From the IMG/VR virus record IMGVR_UViG_3300012036_000004, positions 1-64,000 of that record: a DNA stretch of 64,000 nucleotides; one strand, given 5' to 3'. Below are positions 36,301 to 63,121 of the stretch, piece after piece (position 1 is the first letter of the stretch; every line of letters starts with the position of its first letter). The notes under the pieces are model-generated. The model searched no databases, was not told the origin of the DNA, and saw only the letters and a program-made list of their open reading frames with translations. The position numbers and the translations under genes are program-made. Source of the stretch: a virus.

Positions 36301-36640
36301 TGACCATCTTGTCCTGCGTCTCGAGCAGGATCTTTCGCTTCTCTTCGTCTGACTTGGCGGCTTTGATGCGACGAAGCGCGTCTTTCATGACAGGGTCGCG
36401 CTGTTTGTAGTCAGGCGCAATGTCATCCAGTCCCACCGAGATCCCTTCCAGGGTCGCAACTTCGTCGCCCAGTGACTTGAGTTTCATCACCGTCTTGACG
36501 TAAGTGTCCGGGTCCGACTTCGCGAGCTCCGTCATCTGCTTCTTGAGGATGCCTTTGGTCACCGGACCGTCCATCCTCATGTCGCCGGGAAGCGTCTCAT
36601 TGAGAAGGAAGTGCCCCAGAGTTTGATTGTCATCAGGCAC
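33329..36640 (-). CDS. RNA polymerase beta' C-terminal subunit with phage-specific extension
   Basis: 1103 residues from a GTG with GGAGG upstream. The first 590 match the second half of bacterial beta'. LGHFLLNETLPGDMR is the start seen after the catalytic domain. GGRGSIAQLMKIVASP and SYSQGVNPADAWVTGVESRR (about 135-185) are the bridge-helix and trigger-loop region. DDLVVTQADCGTRGG follows, then CEAHDGVCQKC (about 268-280) as the second zinc site, VGARSAQAMTEPLTQFALN, and a Q-like VYLSNQLTDLYRRQGVDID clamp end. The C-terminal 500 residues are not polymerase: VEKIASKAGLLKRI, helices, Gly-rich segments and four PPTQGQ repeats (about 950). This part resembles the neighbouring virion proteins. 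Confidence 0.85.
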   Translation of the reverse strand: MPDDNQTLGHFLLNETLPGDMRMDGPVTKGILKKQMTELAKSDPDTYVKTVMKLKSLGDEVATLEGISVGLDDIAPDYKQRDPVMKDALRRIKAAKSDEEKRKILLETQDKMVTATENHPSDMTIMAKSGGRGSIAQLMKIVASPVLAMNKGQATPWLVTKSYSQGVNPADAWVTGVESRRNAIASSGAVVEPGMVAKVVMNNMDDLVVTQADCGTRGGILLPVTDQVQDRYLARDEGPVSRNTLVTSDVVNKLKKANKPKVLVRSPTACEAHDGVCQKCVGLNEWGKPHQVGTNVGARSAQAMTEPLTQFALNAKHGVRLAKGKGQGATELTGLTGFRTLTEVPKSFQDKAAITEHDGRVESVKKAPQGGWHIRVAGKNYYTPPRLQPIVKQGDIVEAGDALSDGVALPNAVVKHKGIGAGRVYLSNQLTDLYRRQGVDIDRRHTELLARNAMKHVRVEEDPTDKFLRGDIVPYTEVQKRMSKAGKSVPVSKAKGHYLAEQTLHFSTGTRITPSVQAELKNNGIASVSVSNLPTVTTPIMKSMIQAPLLNDDWMSRLSHRYLKRTLVEGAGFGSTTDIASTSPVPAYAIGAPFGTGLQGKYAADGGAVEKIASKAGLLKRILVGSGDEFAEQVASKGDEALRMISDAPWTAGGIDTAALDAARRMKRLPDDFMSRANLIQNNQLTDEGARFVRTLDSNEKAFKNIGGALQEAQQASRNPHLNLSQFTREAVENVPRRGADESAQAFGERLKAFEETHGKALSDFARAKVDLENVNPAAAKMFTPDVAQQYAAARPGLGRRIARGASDVSIGQNPLKIMKQRAQMGGIFGRGGLLHGEMAIDPDVMRAWRNARNPNVDAGYGGMVLPVSMDVLNKGMAYGMPAAMVHEAANAPDVEGQSKLENIGGTLGDSLGWAIGSPFGMLSGGAFAAPFTAAGKAIGRKIDPNYQPPTQGQPPTQGQPPTQGQPPGGQRMAARPSPQQMRTNPNAWGQAAQYGDRSADAVWGSMQSHPYLARLNLAEDALGTARAEWEQHSPQLRQMWQQQQFAAEQARAQQQQRPGLPTQMKQDFSVRSGHYPARELHRMKTQQSSQNGSAVASPFWKR
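33738..33800. repeat. 18-bp tandem repeat coding PPTQGQ
   Basis: CTGACCTTGTGTTGGAGG-type units occur in tandem and encode the PPTQGQ repeats near the C-terminus of the polymerase beta' gene. Confidence 0.8.
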
Positions 36641-37292
36641 CGTACCCTCCAACGCCAGGGTTTCTCAGTTTCTTCGTTACGTTCACTCCGTCCGACAAAG
36701 ACCACGCGGTTCCGCCGGCCGCCAGTGCTTTGCCGGGCGTGCCCCGCGCCACTTCGGATGCCCGGTGACCAACGTTCGACATCATGCGTCGACCCGGAGA
36801 CATGCCTTCAGTCTTCGCCGCGTGTGTTGCAGCTCGCTCTGCTTTGGCTGTTTGAGACTTCACCGCGCTTGCCTGACGTCGGTTGGAGAAGAAGTTTCGA
36901 CTCTTCTTTCCGAAGTTGCTACTCCCTTTTCCGCCAGCTTTCCCAACCCCTTTGATGGCTTTCCCAACCCCTTTGATGACTTTCCCAACCCCTTTGGCGA
37001 AAAATTTCCCGCCCTGAATCAGCGGACTCAGTAACGCGATTTTCTCCATGTCCTCCGGAGTTGGGTGAAGCAGTGCTTGACGGAGCATTGCGGTCTTGAT
37101 GGAGGGGGCACCCATATCGATGCCCAGACGAGACGCGGCGTCCTGTCCGAACAGGGACGTGGGTTCACCCCACGTGAGCGGTTCGAGCCCATACAGGTTA
37201 TCGCCTTTGAGCTCCCGAATACCTTTGGGCTCGGAAGGCTCTTCCGTGATTCCCTCGAGCAGTTCTTTGACTCCGGTGATCTTCTTTTCCAT
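36633..37292 (-). CDS. Basic virion protein between the polymerase genes
   Basis: 219 residues. The N-terminal 85 residues carry IKTAMLRQA and MEKIALLSPL motifs. The centre is a lysine/glycine repeat (KGVGKVIKGVGKAIKGVGKA), and the C-terminus is basic and Gly-rich. It overlaps the beta::beta' gene by one base and the beta' C-terminal gene by eight bases, so all three are translationally coupled. Its placement between two halves of one enzyme suggests a partner that binds RNA polymerase, DNA or membrane; this is unproven. Confidence 0.55.
   Translation of the reverse strand: MEKKITGVKELLEGITEEPSEPKGIRELKGDNLYGLEPLTWGEPTSLFGQDAASRLGIDMGAPSIKTAMLRQALLHPTPEDMEKIALLSPLIQGGKFFAKGVGKVIKGVGKAIKGVGKAGGKGSSNFGKKSRNFFSNRRQASAVKSQTAKAERAATHAAKTEGMSPGRRMMSNVGHRASEVARGTPGKALAAGGTAWSLSDGVNVTKKLRNPGVGGYGA
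36943..37003. repeat. 21-bp repeat coding KGVGK
   Basis: Three near-identical units (TTTCCCAACCCCTTTGATGG type) encode the KGVGKxI repeats of the basic protein. Confidence 0.75.
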
Positions 37293-40200
37293 TAGGTCCT
37301 CTGAATCTTAACGGGGGTGCTCATCTTGATTTCGCCGCGTTTGTACGCTGCCATCGCATCGGCTTTCGAGTCAAAGACGCGCGTCTCGCCTTGCGGACCC
37401 TCTCGAGTTGCCATGTACGTCCCGATCAGCGCTTCGTGTGCCGGGAAGACCATGAGGTCATCCTTGGATACATCGCCGAGAAGAAGGTTGGACAGCGTCA
37501 TGCTCTTCGACTCAGATACGGCGGCGTCTGCCACAGGGACATGCAGCTGCACGGTGTCGCCATCATAGTCGGCGTTCATGCCTTGTTCTGCAAATGGATT
37601 CAGTCGAACGGTCTTGCCCGGGATGAGTTTCGGATACGCAGAAATGAGCCCAAATCGGTGCAGCGTGGGGGCTCGGTTCATGACGACAGGCCGTTTCTTG
37701 ACTTCGGTACCCAGGATGCGTCGAGCCGCCGGGTCTCGGTTCTTCACTTTCTTGCGGGCGTCTGCTGCGCGGTGCCCTGACTGGACCAGTCCTTTGACGA
37801 GGAAAGGTTCGTACATCTTCCAGGCCATCTCCTCAGGCATACCGACCTCGTCCATGTTCAGGTTGAGATCCGGAGCAATGGTTGCGCGGCCCGACAGGTC
37901 CTGACGTCGCTTCATCATGCGCGACTGGAAGTACCCATGCTTCGGCGAGCCGGTGCCTGTGATTTGCTGAAGATGCCCCTTCGTTCCTCGCCCCTGGTTC
38001 TGCGGAGACACGGGGTCATTGAAGCCGAACAAAGCACCGACCGAGTCGTGCAGGTGTTTGCGTCGCTTCTTCCGATCGTCATCGGTGTCGAGCTCCTCGG
38101 GCGTCTCGGTAATGGACTCGTTTGCCAGCATCACGTCTCGGTACAGGTAGTTTGCATCCGAGATGAGCATGGTCCCGTCGCTCGTGGGCATGATGGGGCG
38201 AATCGTCGGAGGCACGACCGGTACCTTCGACAGCACATAGGCGTCGCCCGCGGTCAGGTCTTCTTTGAGCAGAGCGTCGATGTACTTGATGCGCTTGACG
38301 GCATCGTCGAGCGTCGCGCCTCGAGCCGTTTTAATCTCCTGCTTCAGCTTCCGGCGTTCGCTCTTCAGGTCGATCTCGTTGAGCTTCTTTTTGACCTCAG
38401 ACGCCCCCTTGTCATCTCGGAATGCGCGGAATTCATTCTTCGTCATCCCCAGCATCCGACGGGCCGGGTCTTCGAACACCGGATTCACCACCGGCTCCGC
38501 CAGGTTAATCTTGGAGTACTTCGTGCCGGTCAGTCCGCCTGTCAGCGCGGGGTCAAACAGCCCTCCCTCCTCAGGCTGGAGCTGTGTAACGCCCTGGCGT
38601 TTCCGCGGCGTCACGAGCAGTGCGTTCTTCACTTCGGTCTTTGCCATCGAGTCGATGTCGCGGTCGGTGAGCGGGGCCAGGCTGTGTCGTGAACCCTTCT
38701 TGTTCACTTTGATGCCTGCTCCGTGCAGCATGTGATTGAACTTCTCGTAAGCGAAGTTCTCGCTCGGCATCGGAGCTGGAAGACCCAGTTGAATGCGGCG
38801 CCAGTACTCGTCGTTACGCTGTCCTTTAACGACCGCAGCCTCCTGCAGCACGTTTCGAGCGTTGTGCGCAAGGAGTGCGTTGAACTCCATCTTGCCCAGG
38901 GACTTCGCCCCCTCGTCACCGCCTTTGGTGGGCTGCATGTTGGAGTCGTACCCGGGGCCAATACCGCGAGCAGCGAAGTTGGTGTCGGTCGACTTGAACA
39001 GTTTGTAGGTGTACTGCCTCCCCACGTGGATGCCTGGGATTTTCTTTCCCGACATCGGGTCGTACACGGTTTCCTTGTCCTTGAGTCCGTTGTCCTTGAG
39101 TAGCTTCTTCGCCCACTTCACGTTGTCGTGGTCGGCGAACTGATCGATGATGACTGGCTTGCCTGTCTTTTCAGCGACCTTGCCGACCGCCGTCTCGAGA
39201 ATCTGACTGGGGTTGATTCGAGTGATCACGCCTGCAGACGTCATCAACACGTCGATCGGCTTGCCGGCCTCGTCTTTCACCATCTGGTCGTCCGGGACGA
39301 TCTTAGACACCACGCCTTTGTTCCCGTAACGCCCGGCCATTTTGTCCCCTACACCCATTGGCGCGTCCATCTTCACCGTGACGGTGATTTGTTTGTTGGT
39401 GACTGCGACGTCAATCACGGTGCCGGGATGGTCGTGATCCCACGTAATGGCCGCGTCCCGGTAAGGCTTCACCAGTGACTTGTGCAAGTTCCCCAGCATC
39501 TGCTGCTGGGCAGATGCCTGATCTTTTCGGATCGCAGAGATGAGGAGCTCACCGTGGTCCACCTGCTGGCCCTTCTTGATGATTCCCTTGGAGTCGAGCC
39601 GTTCGTACTCCGGACGCGAGTAGCGCGAGCCGAAGTAGGCCCGGTGCTTGTCCTTGTCTGTGGAGACCCCCTGGTCCAGCGACAGCGTCTCTTTGTACAT
39701 GTGCCTCGAAGTCAGCTTCTTGGACGCAGACTCCGAGATCACGACAGCGTCGTTGGAGTTGTAACCGTAGTAGGGCATGTATCCCACCGACAGATTCTTC
39801 CCCAGAGCAAGCGTTCCGTTGCGAGTGAAGTTGGTCTCCGCCAGGGCCTGCCCCTGTTGGACTCGCTGGCCTTTCTTCACGTTGACGTCGTCGTGCATGT
39901 ACGTCTTGGACATCAAGGGGAAGTCCGTAGCGTAAGGCACCTTGACGAGATCGTCTGTCTTGGCCGCGGCGGTCTTCATCCATGCAGAAAGGGATTTTTC
40001 CTGAGGCCCTTCAGCGCTTCGCTTGGAGCGATCAGGTCGGATGTAGATGTAGTCTTTGTCGATCTTCTCCACAGTGCCAGCGGTCGGCGACATGGGAACG
40101 ATGAGCTCACCCATCTGTTTCTCGACAGTCTTCTCCGGGTCCCACGACCGAATTTGTACATAAGGCTCGTCTCGATCAATGAGCGGCAACGCCTGGGTGT

Positions 40201-41746
40201 GCATCTTGGACCCCATGATGTTTCGGTTGCCCTGCGCGCTGTTCAAAAACGGCACGAGATTCGTCGTCGGGCTGTACATCCGGGAGGGGTCGGGGACTTC
40301 ATAGTCCACCTCCGAAGAGTTTACTGAGTAAACCTGTCCGTTCTTCAGTGCGTCGATCTTCTTGCGCCCGCCCAGCTTCTGGTTCGGGAACGCGACGGTT
40401 TTCTCCATCAGCTTCGACGCCTTCACGTACTCGAGTTTCCCGTTCTTGGTGTTGCGCATCTGGGCGTACATGTTTCCTTCGTCGTCACGCCGAGCGAACA
40501 TCGAAGTTCGCACATCGATGCCTGCTTTCCCTGATTCGGGCGTTCGCACCGGGTCAAGGATACCCAGATGGGAGTGATGCACGTCTCGAGCTTCGTCTGG
40601 TACGGCCAAAGTCGACGAAATACCCCCCTCACCTAGCGAGGTGACTTTAACGGCATGATCAACGATCTCCATCGGATTTATCTGCATCGGCGTCGCAGTG
40701 AGTGCGGACGTCGTCACAAAAGAGTGGAGGGATTTCGTGAAAGGAGACGACGGCATGATGTCCGAGACCTTCGGATTGTCCCCGGCCTTCCGAAGACGCA
40801 TCTTGACCTTTCGAGAGATGTCTGGCGCTGCGTCTTTCTCAACTCGTTCCTTCAAAAACGACTCAACCGTGTGGATGGTCTTGAACGCAGTCGAGTCTCG
40901 ATCGTCCTGCTCCTCTTTGTCGTTGTAGACGTTCAGAATCTTCTGACTGGCTCGCAGAAGCGTCTTGGGTTCGACCTTAGAGAACTTCTGACCCAGCGTG
41001 ATGTTGGTGACCTCCGGATCGAGCTGCGTACGGTCGTACGAGTCCCGGATCGCCTCCAACATCTCCTGGTGATTCGGGTTGTCCTCCTGCAGAAAGCTTG
41101 GAATGAGCTTTTTGTAGAGCTTTCGGACGTACCGAGCTTCCTTGCCGGCGGCGTACTTCTTGTTGAGTTGAAGTACGTCCTTGCCCCAATACTTGGTGAT
41201 CTCTGTATCCCGCACCCCCAGGGCTGACAGGGCCCCGTAGAGCGGAATCTTGCTTGAGCCGTACTCCATGAAGATGAGACCGCGGTCTGGGTCGAGCGAC
41301 AACCGGAAGTTACGTCCCTTGGCGAGGTTGAATGCGGACTCGAGCTCTCCGTTGCCGCGCTGCCGTGTGTAGACCCCGGGCTTGATTCGAACCTGGTTGG
41401 AGACGGTGTAGTCATTGCCCTTCATGATGAAGGTGTGCCGCTCTGTGAAGTACGGGATCTGCGCCAGAGTTCGCTTGCTCGTATCCAGTATCTTACCCGT
41501 CTTCTTGTCACGAACAACGACCGTACCCTTCATCGGCTCGACCAAGGTCTTGCCCTCCAGGATGGCTTTCTTCTGCTCGGAGGGAGAGAACACTTTGTTC
41601 GTCGGTTCGACGTCCTGAATCTCCACAATGTGCTTATCTGTCTCGACCCGAAAGTCCTGAATCCCCTTCCTGACGTGGTCTCGAATCATCTCACGCCGTT
41701 CTTCAGCGCGCCCCATCAGGGGATAGAGTGTTGGGTTTTTCGCCAC
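37292..41746 (-). CDS. RNA polymerase beta::beta' N-terminal fusion
   Basis: 1484 residues from a GTG with AGGAGG six bases upstream. Beta motifs in order: RDVHHSHLGILDP with RTPES (near 390), GYNSNDAVVISES (near 665), GDKMAGRYGNKGVVSKI (near 800) and KMEFNALLAHNARNVLQE (near 960). The beta' part begins near 1060 (GGLFDPALTGG) without the usual N-terminal four-Cys zinc domain. It continues with LSGRATIAPDLNLN, RAPTLHRFGLISA and the catalytic NADYDGD (about 1391-1397; Asp1393, 1395 and 1397 bind Mg). It ends just after MVFPAHEALIGTYMAT and the AYKRGEIKMSTPVKI segment, a natural break; the rest of beta' is at 33329. Both active-site halves are thus present. No alpha, omega or sigma gene is seen here. 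Confidence 0.9.
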   Translation of the reverse strand: MAKNPTLYPLMGRAEERREMIRDHVRKGIQDFRVETDKHIVEIQDVEPTNKVFSPSEQKKAILEGKTLVEPMKGTVVVRDKKTGKILDTSKRTLAQIPYFTERHTFIMKGNDYTVSNQVRIKPGVYTRQRGNGELESAFNLAKGRNFRLSLDPDRGLIFMEYGSSKIPLYGALSALGVRDTEITKYWGKDVLQLNKKYAAGKEARYVRKLYKKLIPSFLQEDNPNHQEMLEAIRDSYDRTQLDPEVTNITLGQKFSKVEPKTLLRASQKILNVYNDKEEQDDRDSTAFKTIHTVESFLKERVEKDAAPDISRKVKMRLRKAGDNPKVSDIMPSSPFTKSLHSFVTTSALTATPMQINPMEIVDHAVKVTSLGEGGISSTLAVPDEARDVHHSHLGILDPVRTPESGKAGIDVRTSMFARRDDEGNMYAQMRNTKNGKLEYVKASKLMEKTVAFPNQKLGGRKKIDALKNGQVYSVNSSEVDYEVPDPSRMYSPTTNLVPFLNSAQGNRNIMGSKMHTQALPLIDRDEPYVQIRSWDPEKTVEKQMGELIVPMSPTAGTVEKIDKDYIYIRPDRSKRSAEGPQEKSLSAWMKTAAAKTDDLVKVPYATDFPLMSKTYMHDDVNVKKGQRVQQGQALAETNFTRNGTLALGKNLSVGYMPYYGYNSNDAVVISESASKKLTSRHMYKETLSLDQGVSTDKDKHRAYFGSRYSRPEYERLDSKGIIKKGQQVDHGELLISAIRKDQASAQQQMLGNLHKSLVKPYRDAAITWDHDHPGTVIDVAVTNKQITVTVKMDAPMGVGDKMAGRYGNKGVVSKIVPDDQMVKDEAGKPIDVLMTSAGVITRINPSQILETAVGKVAEKTGKPVIIDQFADHDNVKWAKKLLKDNGLKDKETVYDPMSGKKIPGIHVGRQYTYKLFKSTDTNFAARGIGPGYDSNMQPTKGGDEGAKSLGKMEFNALLAHNARNVLQEAAVVKGQRNDEYWRRIQLGLPAPMPSENFAYEKFNHMLHGAGIKVNKKGSRHSLAPLTDRDIDSMAKTEVKNALLVTPRKRQGVTQLQPEEGGLFDPALTGGLTGTKYSKINLAEPVVNPVFEDPARRMLGMTKNEFRAFRDDKGASEVKKKLNEIDLKSERRKLKQEIKTARGATLDDAVKRIKYIDALLKEDLTAGDAYVLSKVPVVPPTIRPIMPTSDGTMLISDANYLYRDVMLANESITETPEELDTDDDRKKRRKHLHDSVGALFGFNDPVSPQNQGRGTKGHLQQITGTGSPKHGYFQSRMMKRRQDLSGRATIAPDLNLNMDEVGMPEEMAWKMYEPFLVKGLVQSGHRAADARKKVKNRDPAARRILGTEVKKRPVVMNRAPTLHRFGLISAYPKLIPGKTVRLNPFAEQGMNADYDGDTVQLHVPVADAAVSESKSMTLSNLLLGDVSKDDLMVFPAHEALIGTYMATREGPQGETRVFDSKADAMAAYKRGEIKMSTPVKIQRT
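40319..40333. repeat. GTTTAC-N3-GTAAAC palindrome, copy 4
   Basis: GTTTACTGAGTAAAC lies inside the beta part of the RNA polymerase gene and encodes VYSVN there. Confidence 0.7.
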
Positions 41747-44294: not shown

Positions 44295-46016
44295 TTAGCT
44301 CACCATCTCCTGCGCTGCGTTTCGTTCCTGCAGCTGAATCTCTTCGAGTCGTTGAATGACGACGGAGTACATGACGTAGTCTTCGGCCTGTAGCGAAGAG
44401 AGCACCGAACGGCGCTGTCCTTCGTCGATCTGGCTGAGCTCCATCGCCATCTGATCGGCCTCGGCGATGACGGCCTGCTGATCGTACTCGAGACCTGTCG
44501 ATCCTGCAGAAGCCTCGGCCTGCGCCTGGTCTGCGAGCGTCGACTGCAGCTCTTCCATCTTTCGGCTGAGCTTCGCCTGTCGTCGCGTCTGCTCGAGCAT
44601 CTCCTGTTCTTTTTGCTCGATCTCGTCGTCGTAATCGAGGTCGAGAATCTCCGATACGGTGCGTCGCGACACCAGGTCGTACTGCGCGTCCGCCTGCATG
44701 ATGAGAGACTTCTGCTGAATATCGTCGATGAACTTGAAGTTCGTGATATCCGCCGAAACTTTCGCCCATCCGAGGTAGTCTGCAATCGAGTCGCAGATCC
44801 ACTGTAGCAGGTCTCTGAGGTCAGCTGAGTGCGACAACAGCTGATTCTCCAGCATCCGTAATGTGACCGAACTTCCGGTAAAAGAGAGTCCCCCATATAG
44901 GAACTCCCGAGGCACGCCCAGACCGGCGATGATGTTGTTCTCGACTTCCTGCACCTCTCCGAGCGTCAAGAGCGTGCGGCCCTGTCCGCCCATCTGCGTG
45001 ACGCCCAGCGCAACCGGGGCGAACATGATATGGAGCGGGTCTTTTCGCCACTGCTTGATGTTCTGCTTGGTCTCGTCAATCCACTGCGCAAAGGCCAGTG
45101 TTTTGACGGGGTCGTTACTGCTCCCCGTCTGGGCGGGGTGAAGTACACGGAACGGCGTGAGGTGATCGAGTGCAATCGCTTCGTTCGACCTCCGCATGAC
45201 CTCCGCGTAGTAGAACTGCTTCATCACCGAGATCACTGATGGATAGCCCAGTGCTCCTCCAAGCCCCGCCGGTACGTCGCCTTTGAGGTGAAAGATTTTC
45301 GTGGGGTCGAAATGGAAAACCTGGTCGTCGTCCGCGGCTTCCAGGAACGCTTTCGGCGTCCCGTCGATCATGTGCCGATCTCCGTCCTTGATGGCGCTTC
45401 TCAGTTCCGCCGGGAGATCATAGTAATACTCAGTGTTGCCTGTGATGGGGTTGTGTTCGACGTCGATGTGTTTGGGGTCCCAGCAGATGACGTTCATGCG
45501 CTTGGGGTCATACACCTTGACGTCGCGCACCTCGCTCAGACGCGTCGTCGACGACGCCTTGCACTGCATGCAGTTGTACTTGAACGTTCGCTTCTTGTAG
45601 TCGAACTTGTAGTCTTTGATGCGCCGAATGTCCCACATCATCCCGCAGCCTTTGCACGGGACGATGCGTTTGAACGGGAAGTACAGAGAGTAAAAAGCGT
45701 TCCCGTACAGGGTGCGGTTCTTGGACGCACCCTTCAGCACCACCTTCGCCCGAAGAGTCTCGAGCACAATCTCGGAGTACTTCGTTCGGAGCGACTCGGA
45801 CTCCGTCTTGAACGTGATGTCCGTGATGACGTAGTCAGCGAGTTTTTGAAGAGCGATGAAAATGTGGGGGGAGTTGTAGTAAATATACTCCGTCCACCGG
45901 TACATATCCTTCAACTTCCGAGGGACGAAGCCCGTCAGAAAATTGAACATCGGGTTCGGATGCGCATTCGACTGCCCGAGAATGTCGAAAGGCTCTCTGC
46001 TGATATCACCACTCAT
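44295..46016 (-). CDS. Portal protein with zinc-ribbon insertion
   Basis: 573 residues. Segments typical of portals are present: MYRWTEYIYYNSPHIFIALQ near the start, HFDPTKIFHLKGDVPAGLGG, QFYYAEVMRRSNEAIALDHL, and the LGVPREFLYGGLSFTGSSVT loop with a long helix ENQLLSHSADLRDLLQWICD. The C-terminal 120 residues form a helical crown with many Gln/Glu. Two Cys pairs (CKGC near 121-124, CMQC near 148-151) insert a zinc ribbon in the N-terminal region. The portal is the DNA channel at the head vertex and packs with the large terminase, encoded at 61330. Confidence 0.8.
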   Translation of the reverse strand: MSGDISREPFDILGQSNAHPNPMFNFLTGFVPRKLKDMYRWTEYIYYNSPHIFIALQKLADYVITDITFKTESESLRTKYSEIVLETLRAKVVLKGASKNRTLYGNAFYSLYFPFKRIVPCKGCGMMWDIRRIKDYKFDYKKRTFKYNCMQCKASSTTRLSEVRDVKVYDPKRMNVICWDPKHIDVEHNPITGNTEYYYDLPAELRSAIKDGDRHMIDGTPKAFLEAADDDQVFHFDPTKIFHLKGDVPAGLGGALGYPSVISVMKQFYYAEVMRRSNEAIALDHLTPFRVLHPAQTGSSNDPVKTLAFAQWIDETKQNIKQWRKDPLHIMFAPVALGVTQMGGQGRTLLTLGEVQEVENNIIAGLGVPREFLYGGLSFTGSSVTLRMLENQLLSHSADLRDLLQWICDSIADYLGWAKVSADITNFKFIDDIQQKSLIMQADAQYDLVSRRTVSEILDLDYDDEIEQKEQEMLEQTRRQAKLSRKMEELQSTLADQAQAEASAGSTGLEYDQQAVIAEADQMAMELSQIDEGQRRSVLSSLQAEDYVMYSVVIQRLEEIQLQERNAAQEMVS

Positions 46017-46044
46017 CCGAACTCCACATCCTCAAAAGGCACCT

Positions 46045-48210
46045 ATGCAACCTATACGACTGCAACTGATTCGTCACCATAATACACCGGTGTTCGCCAC
46101 AAAAGACGATCACTCAGATTTGAATCGAGTGTATGGCTACACTCGAGTTCGCAAGATGGGCCTCGCCCTCTTCCCCGCATTTCTCCCATTCTCCGAGCAC
46201 GTGGTCAACGACCTCAACATCGTGTACGGCGAGGAGAACCTGGACTGGGCACTGGCTGCAAAGAACCACCTTGCCGAGTTAGAGAACGAAAAGCGTCGAC
46301 AGAACTCTGAGAGCTTACCGGCTGGCTTCGAGTTCGTCACGGAGCCGTTCGGCCACCAGCGAGAAGGTGTGATACGCGCCATATACGAGCCGCGCACCGC
46401 GTTGTATTTCGACTGCGGTCTCGGCAAGACCAAAACGGCTATCGATCTCATCCGTGCGTTGAAGTGCAAGATCTCCGACATGCGTGCCCTGGTTATCTGT
46501 CCGCCGCACCTTGCGCCGAACTGGGAAGAAGAGTTCGCTACGCATGATGATGGCGAACTTCGCGTCCGAACGCTACTCGACCACAACTCCAAAACGCTTG
46601 GGTCAAAGAAGCGGCGCCATGCCTATCATGGGACGCGTAAGCACGAGCCGAGTTGGCACCCAGACGAGCCGTGGGGTGAGCTCTTTCCCGATGTCGTATA
46701 CGAACCCAGCCCTGACCGCGCCTTCCGTGTCGCTGGTGGCGATAACGAACTCGACTACCTGAAAGCGACGCAACGCGACGACTCCGACGAGCGCGGACGA
46801 GCTCGAGCTCGAATGCGTCGTCACGCCAAGAAGAGGGGCATCGACTTGCCTGCTCCTGCAAAACGAGTCAATCCGGCTCCCGAGCCTGTCAAGAACTTCG
46901 ATGTGTTGGTGTTGCCATACTCAGTGCTCAAGAAGGATCTCAATCACATCCTGGACGCCTATCCCTACAACGTCCTGATCTGTGATGAATCGCACATGCT
47001 CCGCTCCCACAAATCGAACCGGTCGAAGGCTGTCCTGAAGTTGGGCGCCAAAGCGAGTCATCGCTACTTGTTGTCCGGGACCCCGGCACTCGGAACGCCG
47101 ATGCATCTCTACGTGCAGCTTCGTTTGCTCGGCGGATTCCTGACCGGCACCTGGTGGGAGTTCTACAAGCGCTACAATGTAGCCATCCGACGCCAGCACC
47201 GAGGCGTTGAGCATGACGAGGTCGTGGCCTACAAGAACCTCAACGTGCTCAATGAGATTGTCACCGAAGTGGCGCTTCGTAAGAAAGCCGATGACTGCCT
47301 CGACCTTCCGCCGGTCCGCACGTTGACCTATCCAATCTATCCCAGCGACGAGACCAAGGAGATGTACAACGAACTCGTCCGAACACACTCTGCAGCGATT
47401 GGTGGTCGACAGATCCGTGTGGCGCACGCTGCAGATCGATTGACGAAGCTACTCCAGGTGTTGTCCGGGTTCATCATCGACTCGCAGAAGGACTACGAGC
47501 TCTGCGATGGCGGCGACGACCGTCCGCCCTGCCCTCATCTGATGGACTGCGTTCGCAACAAAATCAACCCCTACACGCCCAAGTGTGCAATCGTGCAGGA
47601 GGACCCGCCCAAGCTTACCGAGTTGTTGGACGCGCAGGACAGGTGCGACCAGAGCATGGAGCTCTTTGAGTCCATCCTGTCCTCGGACGACAACAAGGTC
47701 ATCGTGTGGGCCACCTTCCAGGCGGAGCTCAACATGTTGGACGCAGCTTTCACGAAGGAGGGTTGGGACTTTGTCCGCGTCGACGGGAACACCAAAGACA
47801 AGCAGGCGGCCAAGAAGCGCTTCAACACGGACCCGAACTGTCGCATCTACCTGAGCCAGATCCGCACAGGTGTCGGCATCACGCTGAACGCGGCCAACTA
47901 CACCGTGTTCTATAACGCCACTTTCGACCTGGGTGATTACATTCAGGCGCAGAAGCGAAACGACCGGATCGGACAGGAGCGTCCAGTGACGGTTTACCAG
48001 CTGGTTGTTCCTGGTAGTGTGAACGAGTATATTTTCCGTTCCTTGGAGCGAAAAGAAGATATTTCTGCTGCCCTCACCGACCACGTTCAGTGTATACTGT
48101 GCGACCGCAATAAGGAGTGCGACGCTGCCGGAATCCAGCCGTTCGACAAAGACTGCATCTACTCGTCGAAGGAAGGCCGACTGCGAATGCGCCCTGCGCT
48201 GCTTAAATAG
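46045..48210 (+). CDS. SNF2-family DNA helicase/translocase
   Basis: 721 residues from an ATG with AAAAGG upstream; the frame is open further left over the portal start. Motif I CGLGKTKTA (Lys128), motif II DESH (314-317), motif III LSGTPAL, motif V SQIRTGVGITLNAANY and motif VI QAQKRNDRIGQERPV mark an SF2/SNF2 two-lobe ATPase. An insertion holds Cys residues (CDGGDDRPPCPHLMDC and later CILCDRNKECD), probably a metal site. It opens the plus-strand replication operon. Roles in fork remodelling or recombination are likely. Confidence 0.8.
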   Translation: MQPIRLQLIRHHNTPVFATKDDHSDLNRVYGYTRVRKMGLALFPAFLPFSEHVVNDLNIVYGEENLDWALAAKNHLAELENEKRRQNSESLPAGFEFVTEPFGHQREGVIRAIYEPRTALYFDCGLGKTKTAIDLIRALKCKISDMRALVICPPHLAPNWEEEFATHDDGELRVRTLLDHNSKTLGSKKRRHAYHGTRKHEPSWHPDEPWGELFPDVVYEPSPDRAFRVAGGDNELDYLKATQRDDSDERGRARARMRRHAKKRGIDLPAPAKRVNPAPEPVKNFDVLVLPYSVLKKDLNHILDAYPYNVLICDESHMLRSHKSNRSKAVLKLGAKASHRYLLSGTPALGTPMHLYVQLRLLGGFLTGTWWEFYKRYNVAIRRQHRGVEHDEVVAYKNLNVLNEIVTEVALRKKADDCLDLPPVRTLTYPIYPSDETKEMYNELVRTHSAAIGGRQIRVAHAADRLTKLLQVLSGFIIDSQKDYELCDGGDDRPPCPHLMDCVRNKINPYTPKCAIVQEDPPKLTELLDAQDRCDQSMELFESILSSDDNKVIVWATFQAELNMLDAAFTKEGWDFVRVDGNTKDKQAAKKRFNTDPNCRIYLSQIRTGVGITLNAANYTVFYNATFDLGDYIQAQKRNDRIGQERPVTVYQLVVPGSVNEYIFRSLERKEDISAALTDHVQCILCDRNKECDAAGIQPFDKDCIYSSKEGRLRMRPALLK

Positions 48211-57131: not shown

Positions 57132-57484
57132 CCACCCTCAAAGAGAGCATGGACACCGAGAAGCTGAACAATCAGCTCCTCAACCTGACCAACGACCTCA
57201 ACGGAGTCCTTGGTCTTCGAGCCCTATCTTCCACCGCCGCCGAGATATGGGTCACTGGTGGCAGCACCAAAAACGAGGTGCTCGCCCGCGCCGAAGAGCA
57301 TGAAGAGCTGGCTGACGTAGACTTCACCTTCCGAGAAGAAGTCGACGAAGCCTACTCGCCCGGCGGCGCCACTGACCGACCTCGAACCTGGGAACCTAAA
57401 AATGACGACCGAGACAACGACACCGACCCCTTCGAAGAACTACTCGAGCGCGATCCAAGCAGCCCCCGCACGGTGGACGAGTAA
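57128..57484 (+). CDS. Small hypothetical protein between primase and polymerase
   Basis: 118 residues. Its start overlaps the primase stop as ATGA. The first 60 residues are helical (EKLNNQLLNLTNDLNGVLGL); the rest is acidic and polar. Its last 83 bases overlap the start of the DNA polymerase gene in another frame. Function unknown; a small replication accessory factor is possible. Confidence 0.55.
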   Translation: MTTLKESMDTEKLNNQLLNLTNDLNGVLGLRALSSTAAEIWVTGGSTKNEVLARAEEHEELADVDFTFREEVDEAYSPGGATDRPRTWEPKNDDRDNDTDPFEELLERDPSSPRTVDE

Positions 57485-60400
57485 CCAAAAGGGGACCTTC
57501 TGTAGTACCTGCCCCAACAAAGACGCTTCGTGCCTGCTGATGGGCCGCTGGTTGAGTCAGGCGAGCATGACCATCATCCTGGCATCGCCGGGGCAAGAAT
57601 CCATCGACCGTGTGCAGCCGCTGGGGAGCCGAGACGAAGCAATCATCGCGCAGCTCATGCAGAACCTGACCGAGAAGCACGGTACAGCCATCGCCTACAA
57701 CATCGTGTATTTGACAGGAGCAGAATCCCGAAAAGCCCCCGGCAAAGAGGTGATCGCTGCTTGCTCGCAGTACATGAACCAGAAGCTGCTCGACGCGCGT
57801 CGACAATTCGAACACGGCCCGCATGCAGGTCGAAACCACGTCCTGGTTCCGCTGGGAAAAGCCTGCACGCAGGCACTTCTTCCTGACGTACGAACCCTCA
57901 AAGAGGTTCGCGGAAAAACTGTCGCCACCGAATTCGGTGGGTACGAGTGGTTGGTCTGTCCGACGTTCAGCAGAGCGCAGCTCTACGTCAAGCCGGGCTA
58001 CGCTCGAGTGATGAGTCACGACATCTCCAAAGCCTACACGCTGTCCCTCAAAGAGGGGCGCGAGGATAAGGTCGACGTCCACTCACTGACGACCGACTAC
58101 ATCATTCCGCAGAACATCGAAGAGGTGCGCGACGTTTGCACTGACCTGCTCGAGCGTATCGAATCTGGCGACATCACTGCGATGAGCGTCGACATCGAGA
58201 CGAACACCAAGAACCCGTATCGCACTGACGGTCACACCTCGGTCGTCTCGCTGGCCTGGGACAAGGGGCAGGCTACCGCCATCCTCCTTGACCACCCTCG
58301 CTCCTACTACGACGCCGAAGAAGCGTGGGAAGCTGTGATTCCCATCCTGGAAAGCGACGTCAAGAAAATCTTCCACAACGGAAAGTTCGATCTCCAGTTC
58401 CTGCGAAACCGCAAAGGACTCAAGGTCCCCAACCTGTGGTGGGATACCATTCTTGCCGAGCACTTCCTCGACGAGGACAAGAGCGGTGTCTACGGCCTCA
58501 AAGAGGTCATCGGGCTCTACGCTCCCCGTTACATGGGCTACGAGAAAGAACTTCGAGCGAACTTCGTCAAGAAGGCGCTGGCCGAAGCTAAGGGTCTCGG
58601 AGAAGACGAAGACCGCGAACCCGACCACGAAGAATCATGGGAGATCATGCCCTTCTTCGCTGACCTCGAATACAAGCCAGTTGCCGAAGACGACAGCATC
58701 GACTGGGAAAGTCTTGGAGAGGACGTCCGTATTGAACTCTTCGAGAACGAAGTGATTTACCTCAACGCGCACCGCGACGGCGAGAAGAAGTCGAAGACTC
58801 GCGCACGAGGTCGCATCCGACGGCGCTGCAAGAAGTACGACCTCGACCCGCCTGACACCGTCAACGACCGCTCCTTCGACGTCGGCGACAATGGCTACGA
58901 CGACATCCCGGTCGACATGCTCCTGTGGTACGCCGCAGTCGACGCTGACGTAACGAGACAGGTATGCGCCGGGCAACGCATGATTGCCGCCCGACGCCAG
59001 CGAGACCTGGGCATGACCACGCCGAATGTCACGCTCCAACGAGACCTGGAGAACGTGATGGCCGACCTGTACGTGCCTGGAACGGATTCACTGTCCACCA
59101 TGTCGTATCGAGGCACCAAGCTCGACTACGATCTGCTCGACCAATACGAAGAAGAGATCGGCCAACTTCGAGACGACACACTTCGCATCATCCGAGAGAT
59201 GGTGTGCCAGCCCGAGTTCAATCCGAACTCCAGCGCCGAGATGGCAGACCTGGTGGTCAACGTCTTGAGCATCGACCCCGATGCGTTCACCTACACTGCC
59301 ACGGGAGCCATCAGCGTCACGGACGCCTGGTTGGCTACACAGCAGGAAGAGTGCGCCGACGAGTTCACGCAGGAAGTCATCTACTACATACGCCTTTACA
59401 AGAAGGCAGCGAAGACGATCTCGTCATTCCTCGCGAAGTTCCGTCGGTTGACTCAGTACGACGGACGTATCCACACCTCGTTCAATCTGAACGGAACCGC
59501 GACTGGTCGGCTGTCTTCTTCGTCGCCCAACCTGCAGAACGTTCCACTGTGGATGTGTCGATTCCCGCCGCACCCCAAGTTCACGAAGGTCTCGAGCCCG
59601 GGGTGGAACATCAAGGCATTGTTCATCCCGAGCGAGCCCGGAAAAGTGTACTTCCAGCTCGATATCTCGGCAGCCGAGATTCGCGTGCTCTGCGCCTACG
59701 CAGGCGACGAGCGTCTGATTTCGGCGCTCAAAGCTGGTCAGGATATTCACTCCTTCGTGGCCTCGCACGTGTTCGACCATACCTACGAAGAGTTCGTGGC
59801 TGGAAAGGACACCGACCCCGACCTCAAGCTGAAGCGAACCGCTACCAAACGCGTGGTGTTCGGCCTGATTTACGGCGCCGGTCCCTACAAGATTGCCGAG
59901 CAGATCTACGGCGGTCTGGCTACCGACGAAGCCGAGCGTGAAACGCAGATTGCCTTCGCGCAGTCTGTCATGGACATGGTCTTCGAGCGCTTCCCGAAGA
60001 TTCAGGAGTACATCTCCAAGACCATCGCGGAGGTCCAACTGTTCGACCAGGTCCGAACGTACTTCGGGCGACGTCGTCGCTTCGACCTTCGAAACGCCTC
60101 CTGGAAGGAAGCTCGGAAGAGCGAGCGCCAGGCGGTCAACTTCAAAATCCAATCGTCGGCTTCTGACATCGTCCTCTCGCAGCTCTGTGCGGTCGAGCAA
60201 GCCATCAAAGAGATTAGCGGAGAAGTGCTCCTCACGGTGCATGACTCCATCGCCGGGGAAATCGATGTCGACAAGGTGCCACTGATGCGTGCCTTCTTCG
60301 ACCACTATGTCGTGGACGAAGTGAAGCGAAAGTTCCCCTGGCTGCCCGTTCCGTTCGCCTACGACCTCGAAGTTGGACCTTCGTATGGTGAGCTCGTCGA

Positions 60401-60509
60401 CTTCGGCCTGCTCGAATCCGATCCGGACGACATCCCGGACTACGTCCTCAAGAAAGCCCGTCCTCGCATGGAGCGGGCAGGGCTCACCTTCTTCTCGGAG
60501 ACCGCCTGA
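57402..60509 (+). CDS. UDG-like / 3'-5' exonuclease / family A DNA polymerase
   Basis: 1035 residues. The N-terminal 220 resemble Fe-S uracil-DNA glycosylases: CSTCPNKDASC, ASPGQES in place of the GEAPG motif, VLVPLGKACTQALL, and a C-terminal motif whose usual catalytic His (HPS type) reads PTFSRAQ. It is therefore probably not active as a glycosylase. The exonuclease motifs are complete: DIETN (Asp264, Glu266), FHNGKFDLQFL (Asp330) and YAAVDADVT (Tyr510, Asp514). Family A polymerase motifs are DISAAEIRVL (Asp754), KRVVFGLIYGAG (Lys816, Tyr824) and VHDSI (His947, Asp948). A UDG-like domain on phage family A polymerases has been described, for example in SPO1-type phages, as I recall. It is the replicative polymerase. 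Confidence 0.85.
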   Translation: MTTETTTPTPSKNYSSAIQAAPARWTSNQKGTFCSTCPNKDASCLLMGRWLSQASMTIILASPGQESIDRVQPLGSRDEAIIAQLMQNLTEKHGTAIAYNIVYLTGAESRKAPGKEVIAACSQYMNQKLLDARRQFEHGPHAGRNHVLVPLGKACTQALLPDVRTLKEVRGKTVATEFGGYEWLVCPTFSRAQLYVKPGYARVMSHDISKAYTLSLKEGREDKVDVHSLTTDYIIPQNIEEVRDVCTDLLERIESGDITAMSVDIETNTKNPYRTDGHTSVVSLAWDKGQATAILLDHPRSYYDAEEAWEAVIPILESDVKKIFHNGKFDLQFLRNRKGLKVPNLWWDTILAEHFLDEDKSGVYGLKEVIGLYAPRYMGYEKELRANFVKKALAEAKGLGEDEDREPDHEESWEIMPFFADLEYKPVAEDDSIDWESLGEDVRIELFENEVIYLNAHRDGEKKSKTRARGRIRRRCKKYDLDPPDTVNDRSFDVGDNGYDDIPVDMLLWYAAVDADVTRQVCAGQRMIAARRQRDLGMTTPNVTLQRDLENVMADLYVPGTDSLSTMSYRGTKLDYDLLDQYEEEIGQLRDDTLRIIREMVCQPEFNPNSSAEMADLVVNVLSIDPDAFTYTATGAISVTDAWLATQQEECADEFTQEVIYYIRLYKKAAKTISSFLAKFRRLTQYDGRIHTSFNLNGTATGRLSSSSPNLQNVPLWMCRFPPHPKFTKVSSPGWNIKALFIPSEPGKVYFQLDISAAEIRVLCAYAGDERLISALKAGQDIHSFVASHVFDHTYEEFVAGKDTDPDLKLKRTATKRVVFGLIYGAGPYKIAEQIYGGLATDEAERETQIAFAQSVMDMVFERFPKIQEYISKTIAEVQLFDQVRTYFGRRRRFDLRNASWKEARKSERQAVNFKIQSSASDIVLSQLCAVEQAIKEISGEVLLTVHDSIAGEIDVDKVPLMRAFFDHYVVDEVKRKFPWLPVPFAYDLEVGPSYGELVDFGLLESDPDDIPDYVLKKARPRMERAGLTFFSETA

Positions 60510-60805
60510 TGCCTATTTACGCCCTCGCCATGGAGACACCCGGTCGCTACATAGTCGGCCAGAGCAGTGCCGCCCCTGACGCTATCCTGTCGACGAACAC
60601 CGTCGCTCTTCAGGACGCCGCTCACCTCACGGTGCTCAAAGAACAGAGCATCCTGACGCCGATCGACGTGCTCGATAACTTCCACGCGAAGGTGTCGAGC
60701 TACATTGGCTTCGGGGTGCTCAACGAAGACTTCAGTTCCATCTACGAGTCGTGGCTCGAGATGCACAAAAATCCGCCGGATTTTGAGGTACAAGAGGGTG
60801 AATGA
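60509..60805 (+). CDS. Small hypothetical protein after DNA polymerase
   Basis: 98 residues. Its start overlaps the polymerase stop as TGATG. It has a compact alpha/beta sequence (MPIYALAMETPGRYIVGQSS, TPIDVLDNFHAKVSSYIGFG). It is the last gene of the replication operon, and its stop lies within the first stem of the folded-RNA array. Function unknown. Confidence 0.55.
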   Translation: MPIYALAMETPGRYIVGQSSAAPDAILSTNTVALQDAAHLTVLKEQSILTPIDVLDNFHAKVSSYIGFGVLNEDFSSIYESWLEMHKNPPDFEVQEGE

Positions 60806-60828
60806 ACTAGTACAGACACTTAGCTGTG

Positions 60829-60849
60829 GGCGATGTTTCGTCGCCATAT
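60829..60849 (+). repeat. Conserved hairpin repeat, copy 1
   Basis: GGCGATGTTTCGTCGCC plus ATAT. A five-pair stem GGCGA/TCGCC with a seven-base loop. Confidence 0.75.
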
Positions 60850-60984
60850 CATAGCAGTACTTTAGTACTGGCCGCCGGCTTGAAGCCGAGCACCAGGCCG
60901 CCTCGAGCTCACTACTTCGGCGGAAATGGTAGTTCATTCATACGCACGCGCTAGACACTGAGGTGATCAAGGACGATCCCTCGA

Positions 60985-61005
60985 GGCGATGTTTCGTCGC
61001 CACAT
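60985..61005 (+). repeat. Conserved hairpin repeat, copy 2
   Basis: GGCGATGTTTCGTCGCC plus ACAT, followed by the 9-bp hairpin at 61024-61045. Confidence 0.75.
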
Positions 61006-61085
61006 TTTGTTTCACTATCTCTTCACCTGGTTTAGCAACCAGGTGTAGAATTAGTAGCGCACTTGAGTTGGCACCGATCTCGGTG

Positions 61086-61106
61086 GGCGATGTTTCGTCG
61101 CCATAT
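61086..61106 (+). repeat. Conserved hairpin repeat, copy 3
   Basis: GGCGATGTTTCGTCGCC plus ATAT, directly preceded by the hairpin CACCGATCTCGGTG. A degenerate copy (GCGGTTTTCGTCGCATA) lies at about 61151. Confidence 0.75.
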
Positions 61107-61244
61107 GAAGTAGGACCGGGAGCAAACGCGAGCGAGGTCTTCCTGGCCACGCGGTTTTCGTCGCATACGCTCCTCAACCCAGCTAGGCCTGGAAGACCAG
61201 GCTCAGCACAGCAACTCACCTCTGATTGGCTCCCGTTTGTGGAG

Positions 61245-61265
61245 GGCGATGTTTCGTCGCCATAT
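61245..61265 (+). repeat. Conserved hairpin repeat, copy 4
   Basis: GGCGATGTTTCGTCGCC plus ATAT, followed by the 7-bp hairpin CAGACAC/GTGTCTG. Confidence 0.75.
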
Positions 61266-61329
61266 CTCCCAGACACTTTCGTGTCTGAGCTTTTCTCGAG
61301 CTCCTCCGGGAGCTGCGTGATCATGGCAA

Positions 61330-62925
61330 TCAGAGAGACATTGGGTAGAACGCTACCTGACCGGTGGCAATCTGCATCGCAAGGCGCCCGAATACCTGGG
61401 CGTGAAGAGCATCGTCAGGGGTGGCCGGGAAGCAGTTCCAAACCCGGCGCCCCTGACCCTGTTTCGTAACTTCCTCATACTCAGCGAGGATATCCTGAAT
61501 CGCGAGCTTCATCTGCTTCTGCTTCGCAAAGACGACGCGGCCTCGCTTGTAGTCCATCATCATCGAATCGATGGCTGCCGTCCGGTCCGCCATATACCGA
61601 TCTGTGTTGTTCCATCGGAGCATCTTCGAGATCGAGCCGTACTGAATCTGAACGACCTTGTTTGCCCCAAGCGCGTCGACCAGCATTGCGTTGGAGACTG
61701 CGCCAACTCCGGCGTCACCAGCGACCAGAGAGACCTTGTAGTCTCGACAGATCTCGATGATTTCCTTCACATCATTAACCGGGTTCGAGGTCGGGAAGAT
61801 GTGGTAGTACAGCGTCTTCATCTGGCCGTTCGGCAGCAAACCCCAGACGTGAATCGCTGTTCGAGACGTGAACGTCGAGGAGCCGCCTCCCGACCAGTCG
61901 ACCCCTGCGACAATCTTCGAGACATGCTTGAAGATTTTGGGGTCTGGCTTGCGCTCAATCGTGTAGTTCCGGCAGAGCGCTTCGAGCTCTTCGAGCGACA
62001 CCATGCGCGTGCCGATCGCGTCGCTCATCCCCAGTACCTCGTTCCTGAACTGCGAGTCTGGGTAGGTGTTGTACTTGTGAAGGATACGGTCCCACCGGGC
62101 CTGCACCTCATTGTTCTGTGGCATGATGAGCTGCGGGATGTGGAACCCGCGGACGTAGGCGCCCGGATTCATGCTGTACCACTGCCCGTCTCGAGGCCGC
62201 AGCTTCTTGCCGCAGTTGACGCAGATAACGCCCGACTTACCGATCGAGCGGACCGTGGTCACGTAGTTCCATTTGTTGCACCCCGTGCACTTCATCATCC
62301 ACACGTCTTGCGTGGATTGCTGCCAAAGGAACTCCATGGTGTTTTCCATCGACTTCGGTGTCCCGAAGTACCAGGTCCACCCGTGCTCCGACTCTGCCAT
62401 GCACTCGTTGACGACCGGCACCACCGACTTGTAAATGATGTCCTGGACCTCGTCCCATACGACCTGGTCCGCCGAGACGCCACGTGCGCGGTCCGGGTCG
62501 TCCTGGGCGTACGAAAGCACGACCTCCGACCCGTTCGAGAAGTGTTTCATCAGCACGTTCATCGGCATCGATGTGCTGGTGTAATTCTTGGAGATCAACG
62601 GAGAATAGGTGATCGCCTTCTGGAGACGGGAGTGCGAAAACCGAGTCGTCTGCTGCTGTGTAGGCGACACAAACAGCGTTCGAAAGTAGTCCTGCGAAAC
62701 CGAGTTCGTCAGGATCATGTTGCAGCCAGTAGTCGACTTAGCGACCTGGCGGCCGCATTTCATCACCAGCTCTTGGTGGTACCCATCGTAGATGTCTCGG
62801 TAAAACGGGTAGTTCTCAAACGAGAACTTCTTCCCGTCCAGTACCACCATAGCTTCCGTGAGTTGAGACCGGGTAAACTGCCCGACACTCTCTTCCTCGC
62901 GTCTAATCGACTGGAACACACTCAT
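61330..62925 (-). CDS. Large terminase subunit
   Basis: 531 residues from ATG at 62925 (an upstream in-frame start is less likely). Walker A is CGRQVAKST (Lys63), Walker B VVWDEVQD. The C-terminal RNase H-like nuclease shows VAGVDWSGGG, LVAGDAGVG and PDDALHA with the three acidic positions. Between them is a four-Cys ribbon (CTGCNKWNYV ... CVNCGKKL). It drives DNA into the prohead through the portal at 44295 and cuts concatemers. No small-terminase gene is recognised nearby. Its stop lies within the last stem of the hairpin array. Confidence 0.85.
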   Translation of the reverse strand: MSVFQSIRREEESVGQFTRSQLTEAMVVLDGKKFSFENYPFYRDIYDGYHQELVMKCGRQVAKSTTGCNMILTNSVSQDYFRTLFVSPTQQQTTRFSHSRLQKAITYSPLISKNYTSTSMPMNVLMKHFSNGSEVVLSYAQDDPDRARGVSADQVVWDEVQDIIYKSVVPVVNECMAESEHGWTWYFGTPKSMENTMEFLWQQSTQDVWMMKCTGCNKWNYVTTVRSIGKSGVICVNCGKKLRPRDGQWYSMNPGAYVRGFHIPQLIMPQNNEVQARWDRILHKYNTYPDSQFRNEVLGMSDAIGTRMVSLEELEALCRNYTIERKPDPKIFKHVSKIVAGVDWSGGGSSTFTSRTAIHVWGLLPNGQMKTLYYHIFPTSNPVNDVKEIIEICRDYKVSLVAGDAGVGAVSNAMLVDALGANKVVQIQYGSISKMLRWNNTDRYMADRTAAIDSMMMDYKRGRVVFAKQKQMKLAIQDILAEYEEVTKQGQGRRVWNCFPATPDDALHAQVFGRLAMQIATGQVAFYPMSL

Positions 62926-63121
62926 GAAACTACTCAAGTTTGCAATTCTAGCGTGGGCAGCGATCGCGCTTCTCGGCGCGTGCATTGCCCACCCGGGTCT
63001 CGTGTTCCTGCTTATCATCGCAGGCACGCTTTACGGCCTGTTCACTCTCACGTTTGGGTCTCTCGATTACTGGCGTCGTTACCACGACCACGTATACGGA
63101 GACTCGAGCGATCACCAATAA
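62924..63121 (+). CDS. 65-residue membrane protein
   Basis: Two hydrophobic helices: LLKFAILAWAAIALLGACIA and GLVFLLIIAGTLYGLFTLTF, then a polar tail (YWRRYHDHVYGDSSDHQ). The start ATG shares the CATG tetranucleotide with the oppositely directed terminase start. It may be a small inner-membrane protein such as a holin-type or superinfection factor; this is a guess from topology. Confidence 0.5.
   Translation: MKLLKFAILAWAAIALLGACIAHPGLVFLLIIAGTLYGLFTLTFGSLDYWRRYHDHVYGDSSDHQ

Follow-up and report, generated by a model that had tools for sequence, protein, structure and literature searches.

CsrB-type sponge RNAs carry many copies of one hairpin, a design suited to titrating a protein, and the type III antitoxin RNAs are composed of near-identical repeats, shorter than the units described here. 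Among the RNAs of phages and prophages, GOLLD and ROOL are large and highly structured, were first found by covariation and are of unknown function (PMC12286853); one phage is known to evade the ToxIN system with an RNA that imitates the antitoxin (PMC3475682); and RNA anti-CRISPRs (Racrs) are solitary viral repeat units, often located just after a promoter, that mimic CRISPR repeats (PMC10651486). Here we describe a tandem array of four structured modules, built around a repeated triloop hairpin, at positions 60799-61335 of a 64,000-nucleotide (nt) stretch of virus DNA (the window: positions 1 to 64,000 of IMG/VR record IMGVR_UViG_3300012036_000004, which spans 101,735 bp, about 102 kb), where it lies between the convergent genes polA and terL; we document its counterparts in related phages and weigh its interpretation as a candidate noncoding RNA.

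Nearest in kind to the array are GOLLD and ROOL, which are likewise large structured RNAs encoded by phages, but covariance models of the GOLLD, ROOL and OLE families do not match it, and it differs from the first two in being a tandem of modules around one triloop hairpin, placed between polA and terL in a window with no tRNA genes. With CsrB-type RNAs it shares the many copies of one hairpin on one molecule, but it is without their GGA loop motif, its loops being mostly YUA or UAA closed by a G-C pair. Like pseudo-ToxI and the type III antitoxins it is a phage array of tandem units and a possible decoy, but its units are longer and dissimilar, having 17 nt in common, whereas the antitoxin mimics consist of short, similar repeats (PMC3475682). 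The likeness to Racrs lies in small phage RNA hairpins situated behind a promoter (PMC10651486), and the difference in stems that vary within one genome and in several modules (four hairpin copies in the window) rather than a solitary repeat. Neither the window nor any of 11 relatives matched a family of Rfam 15 at the gathering score, and no match up to E = 5 was obtained for the arrays of the window and of L063 (L numbers denote loci of the survey below); searches of the open-access literature found no description of such an array, subscription papers and preprints being mostly outside this coverage. A first-pass annotation, made from the letters of the window alone, had assigned the element to no described family, and these searches agree. 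With its covariation, its likely promoter, its fixed genomic place and its lack of an Rfam relative, the array would add to the few RNA families known in phages, a novelty at the level of the RNA family.

The same annotation had proposed four structured modules between convergent operons, and the minimum-energy fold of the + strand resolves into those four as its top-level units. Each has a closing stem, within which the repeated triloop hairpin (P3) is in most cases immediately preceded by a short hairpin (P2) and is followed by one or more unit-specific hairpins. polA is the final large gene of an operon pointing at the array, and terL converges on it from the - strand:

57402-60509, + strand: polA, family A DNA polymerase with a 3'-5' exonuclease domain (Pfam PF00476, 7e-70, and PF01612; PHROG 17)
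60799-60940, + strand: module 1, closing stem TGAATGAACT/AGTTCATTCA, from the RNA fold
60811-60828, + strand: hairpin P2 of module 1, TACAG/CTGTG, abutting P3
60829-60845, + strand: triloop hairpin P3, copy 1, from sequence repeat, fold and covariance model
60855-60870, + strand: unit-specific hairpin of module 1, CAGTAC/GTACTG, from the RNA fold
60948-61060, + strand: module 2, closing stem GCGCT/AGCGC, from the RNA fold (z -6.4)
60959-60983, + strand: hairpin P2 of module 2, ending one base before P3, from the RNA fold
60985-61001, + strand: triloop hairpin P3, copy 2, from sequence repeat, fold and covariance model
61024-61045, + strand: unit-specific hairpin of module 2, CACCTGGTT/AACCAGGTG, from the RNA fold
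61064-61218, + strand: module 3, closing stem TGAGTTG/CAACTCA, from the RNA fold
61072-61085, + strand: hairpin P2 of module 3, CACCG/CGGTG, abutting P3
61086-61102, + strand: triloop hairpin P3, copy 3, from sequence repeat, fold and covariance model
61186-61203, + strand: unit-specific hairpin of module 3, GGCCTGG/CCAGGCT, from the RNA fold
61220-61335, + strand: module 4, closing stem CTCTGATT/AATCAGAG, covering the terL stop codon, from the RNA fold
61230-61244, + strand: alternative hairpin P2 of module 4, CTCC/GGAG, abutting P3; the minimum-energy fold instead pairs GGAG with 61266-61269
61245-61261, + strand: triloop hairpin P3, copy 4, from sequence repeat, fold and covariance model
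61270-61287, + strand: unit-specific hairpin of module 4, CAGACAC/GTGTCTG, from the RNA fold
61330-63027, - strand: terL, large terminase subunit with a GpA-type ATPase, convergent with polA (PHROG 675, 1e-65; Pfam PF05876, 7e-14)

The closing stems measure 10, 5, 7 and 8 bp in modules 1 to 4, close to the 6-11 bp first described, that of module 2 falling just below the range. Unit-specific hairpins, also anticipated, are present in every module, with the reservation that the helix preceding P3 in module 4 has the alternative given above. The folding energy of the whole array lies far below that of dinucleotide shuffles (z -6.8 on the + strand and -5.6 on the - strand, with none of 100 shuffles as low), as does that of single modules on the + strand (z -3.4 to -6.4); it does not discriminate between the strands. 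The reported overlap with flanking stop codons is likewise present, module 1 starting inside the last codons of a 98-amino-acid (aa) open reading frame (ORF; 60509-60805) and module 4 containing the terL stop codon (61330-61332).

One exact copy of P3, GGCGATGTTTCGTCGCC (GGCGATG-TTT-CGTCGCC), had been assigned to each module, and four were found, with no further exact copy in the 101,735-bp record; allowing up to three mismatches, five sites were found against 0.34 expected. The hairpin has seven base pairs, one of them U-G, a G-C closing pair and the three-base loop TTT, and pair probabilities are 0.89-1.0 for all four copies. Units of the window are 101-159 nt apart and have in common these 17 nt and a short ATAT/ACAT tail. 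A coding repeat was considered and rejected: the spacings of 156, 101 and 159 nt put the copies in different frames, and so they are read by the two ORFs (128 and 168 aa) that traverse the array. Within module 3, the sequence GCGGTTTTCGTCGC (61152-61165) resembles a decayed extra copy of the repeated hairpin.

The scan with TerL by which related loci were collected gave 49 viral loci, among which are several duplicate assemblies; another assembly also contains this virus (L003, L008, L011). TerL of the relatives is 43-71% identical, and in most of them polA and terL converge, with 300-1600 nt between the two. Automatic delimitation took the nearest ORF of 200 aa or more as the border of a gap, and the gaps of L042, L043 and L062 therefore include a small ORF. 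About 14 other phages proved to have, at this locus, hairpins of the same geometry written in different letters, for example (polA strand) GTAGGCG-TTA-CGCCTAC in L043, AGCAGCG-CTA-CGCTGCT in L042, AGAGAGG-TAA-CCTCTCT in L066, GGTAGTG-TTA-CACTACC in L071, GACGGTG-CTA-CGCCGTC in L078, and both GCAGTAG-CTA-CTACTGC and GTAAGAG-TTA-CTCTTAC in L063. Stem sequences thus differ even among the copies within one genome, as in L063, L066, L068 and L071.

These hairpins were captured by a rule derived from the window, L012 and L014 (seven base pairs, G-C closing pair, loop of three, at most one odd pair), which gave 67 matches in 17 arrays (14.7 kb), where dinucleotide shuffles gave 1.8; in the coding sequence of terL, 25.7 kb of which was examined, it found only five. 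Most arrays carry three to six triloop hairpins. Loops of three are enriched about 20-fold (79 vs 3.5), other sizes 1.4- to 5.5-fold; the distribution of stem lengths has a sharp peak at 7 bp (43 of 60); and 52 of the 67 hairpins have A in the third position of the loop. A sister group of phages (L046, L053, L055, L089 and others) has no array and carries a protein of ~185 aa in its place. The polA-terL gap of L017/L044 has, besides triloop hairpins, at least five copies of CCAAGTGAACTGC on the polA strand, each beside a different hairpin. The arrays of L043 and L070 are 99% identical, that of L070 having an insertion of a ~30-nt hairpin, a possible route of module growth. More distantly, a DNA search of named phages gave no match, TerL there being at most 33.5% identical; in Salmonella phage Arash and Vibrio phage D181 the genes after terL lie on its own strand. 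Searches of bacterial genomes for the exact repeat and for relatives of TerL found none, and the phage is therefore assigned to no host.

Covariation in related phages, named in the first-pass annotation as a check for conserved structure, was found, as were matches to a covariance model. With the structure predicted from L063 alone and aligned to L082 by sequence alone, the pairs that changed between the two comprised 27 double changes that still pair, 9 one-sided changes and 32 that are broken; controls in which the partner was slid gave 1-6 double compensatory changes. From 19 hairpins of six phages we derived a covariance model and ran it on 266 kb, made up of the window, seven array-less loci and ten array loci held out of the training; it matched at E < 1 only inside polA-terL gaps, the held-out phages included; the remainder of the window genome gave no match below E 0.4. 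Pair counts on the training set of this model are not independent evidence, because its hairpins were chosen for pairing. From the recurrence of one geometry in other letters, the L063-L082 comparison and the held-out matches we conclude with high confidence that a selected structure is real; the recurrence shows selection on the shape of the hairpin, whose letters are not conserved.

The element had originally been described as structured RNA or DNA, and the triloop hairpins narrow this choice to one strand. Where such G-C-closed hairpins contain a single odd pair, that pair, read on the polA strand, is G-U in 27 instances and A-C in 2 (two-sided binomial about 1.6e-6, ignoring relatedness), and among 62 distinct hairpins from 12 phages the counts are 24 and 2. 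By these counts, the polA-strand sequence forms the triloop hairpin while single-stranded, in the simplest case as RNA. The narrowing does not extend to the other helices, in which G-U and A-C stand at 24 to 24 with no strand bias, as two further counts agree; because these helices show no G-U bias, most of the array by itself indicates neither RNA nor a strand.

A second line of evidence for the strand is a promoter-like motif, TGNTATAAG, which has the form of an extended -10 promoter. In nine relatives it starts the array and points into it, at no more than about 25 nt from where polA ends or, in L062, directly behind the LSm-like ORF discussed below. Of its 19 sites in 586 kb of strand-bases from 24 loci, nine lie where an array starts; the terL strand has none. 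The extended -10 form recurs, as GTGKTATAAG, at L092:1850, L094:4060 and L096:1983, ahead of the gene that appears to be first in the replication operon. A scan for conserved k-mers returned only the promoter-like TATAAG and a weak GAGCTC. At the array start of the window, L042 and L043 the motif was not found; these three have GAGGTANAAG in common near the end of the small ORF, perhaps a counterpart. A weak candidate in the window is the following, and L012 and L014 have the similar GAGGTAGAAG at its place:

60785-60794, + strand: GAGGTACAAG, inside the LSm-like ORF, weak possible counterpart of TGNTATAAG, unproven; two exact matches genome-wide

On the triloop hairpins and the promoter-like motif, from which the strand is argued, we consider it probable that the array is transcribed as RNA of the polA strand.

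Directly upstream of the array in the window is the small ORF that module 1 overlaps:

60509-60805, + strand: small ORF, 98 aa, predicted Sm/LSm-like (AlphaFold2, mean predicted local distance difference test score 90)

By sequence this ORF matched no family (searches including Pfam, PHROG, PDB and named phages). Its model, compared with PDB by Foldseek, matched the Sm/LSm-like structure 3by7 with template modelling (TM) scores of 0.56-0.62 by query and 0.62-0.73 by target. Its other nearest neighbours among solved structures are eukaryotic Lsm and Sm proteins, with many chains matched, and the designed particle TIP60, which we take to be built on the 3BY7 protein; among natural proteins 3by7 and the Lsm chains match best. 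Its matches in BFVD include cyanophage proteins annotated as Sm-like. The 98-aa protein is accordingly predicted to have the Sm fold. In three relatives (L042, L043, L062) homologues occupy the same place, and in the sister phages the ~185-aa proteins after polA (L046 7717-8274, L053 7862-8425 and L089 7852-8415, all on the - strand) have C-terminal halves predicted to be LSm-like (3BY7, TM by target 0.72-0.83). We know of no RNA partner for these phage Sm/LSm-like proteins. The protein of entry 3BY7 is described as similar to Sm/LSm RNA-binding proteins; the protein beside the array has the same predicted fold, and its link to the array is positional.

The reading that we favour, while stopping short of calling it probable, is that the array is a noncoding RNA of the phage, not described before and transcribed in the direction of polA, that serves as a multivalent scaffold or decoy. 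Such an RNA would be made, in the relatives, from its own promoter just past polA or the LSm-like gene; each module would form a multi-helix junction presenting the triloop hairpin as a handle; and the repeated handles on one RNA would bind many copies of one protein, the whole acting as a scaffold or sponge during infection. Stems vary while the geometry, the closing pair and, mostly, the loop adenine are fixed, and a protein would therefore probably read the handle through its shape and loop; it is the presence of several handles per RNA that suggests a multivalent scaffold or decoy. That the array RNA is a multivalent ligand for a protein we hold a shade more tentatively. Since the LSm-like gene is adjacent in the window, its product is the first candidate partner, a proposal we regard as doubtful given a purely positional link that many relatives lack; the alternative partner is a protein of the host, one that binds RNA or acts in defence. 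A fuller scheme, in which a tandem-junction RNA expressed with the replication genes would assemble with an LSm-like ring protein into a new phage ribonucleoprotein system that controls RNA fate or disarms a host factor, is conjectural and on present evidence unlikely.

Several observations weigh against the scaffold or decoy reading. To the evenly divided odd pairs of the other helices and the promoter-like motif missing from three array starts, the window's among them, must be added that a P2-P3 module common to all phages was not obtained, P2 being clear in some and absent or different in others; that the scheme of modules resisted alignment over the full set of phages, so that alignment at the level of modules is incomplete; that the LSm-like gene touches the array in only four array-bearing phages; and that an LSm profile search of 14 other records, which included no positive control, found no relative. 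The repeated hairpin makes the search for a partner protein simple, and if the LSm-like neighbour is that partner, phage Sm-like proteins would gain an RNA on which to act.

None of the first three rival readings below accounts both for the promoter-like motif and for the hairpin's fixed geometry. The first to be weighed, which we think unlikely, is a tandem terminator or insulator, whose hairpins would stop or slow RNA polymerase, protect 3' ends and keep the convergent polA and terL operons apart. The array does sit exactly between those operons, runs of U follow some triloop hairpins in L042 (one with U12), L043 (three copies) and L078, and the gaps of L051 and L043 hold strong hairpins followed by U-tracts; but most triloop hairpins, including three of the four in the window, have no such tract, and the U-tails of the window, one after a P3 copy and one after a unit-specific hairpin, are weak and about as many as in shuffles (two against 1.0). 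An inward-pointing promoter-like motif in nine relatives is needless for a terminator, termination does not need a fixed 7-bp stem with A at the third loop position, and the sister group manages with an apparent single terminator (L046).

Less likely again is an element acting at the level of DNA, such as a replication terminus or a packaging or recombination site, in the form of extruded or single-stranded hairpins. This would suit the border with terL and the long non-triloop helices, which show no strand bias and are often perfectly Watson-Crick (41 perfect vs 6.8 expected), but not the 27-to-2 disparity of odd pairs on one strand, the promoter-like motif, or an array length that varies from about 300 to 1600 nt. 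We judge it improbable that the hairpins are a non-functional by-product of template switching during replication, a process that perfects and multiplies imperfect inverted repeats: the excess of perfect double changes over G-U intermediates between L063 and L082 (22-28 vs 10-14) and the hairpin inserted in L070 relative to L043 are as it would predict, but it leaves unexplained the stem length of 7, the loop size of 3, the bias in loop bases, the tolerance of G-U on one strand and the promoter-like motif, as well as persistence at one locus while TerL diverges to about 45% identity.

Still more improbable is a leader (5' untranslated region) regulating a downstream small protein gene. Similar ORFs of 78 and 86 aa do stand at the array's far end in L068 (7436-7672, - strand) and L071 (3690-3950, - strand), on the polA strand, where they overlap or adjoin the last part of terL, but the same scan found none in L063, L066, L078 and L082, and none is obvious in the window. 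That the array imitates a type III (ToxI-like) RNA antitoxin and so disarms an abortive-infection toxin of the host has a precedent in the phage escape from ToxIN (PMC3475682), but the spacing of the units, the short part they have in common and the lack of an Rfam match make this very improbable here. To the side suggestion of an RNA anti-CRISPR we give almost no credence, for although the copies in the window are identical and hairpin-shaped, the common unit is only 17 nt with its tail, several copies stand in one array, and stems that differ between copies of one genome make mimicry of one host repeat unlikely.

Elsewhere in the window are a helicase gene (45943-48210) and a gene for a Toprim-domain primase. 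Two large proteins encoded on the - strand, at 37292-41746 and 33329-36652, match phage families of the RNA polymerase beta subunit, and the phage seems to carry a multi-subunit RNA polymerase of its own.

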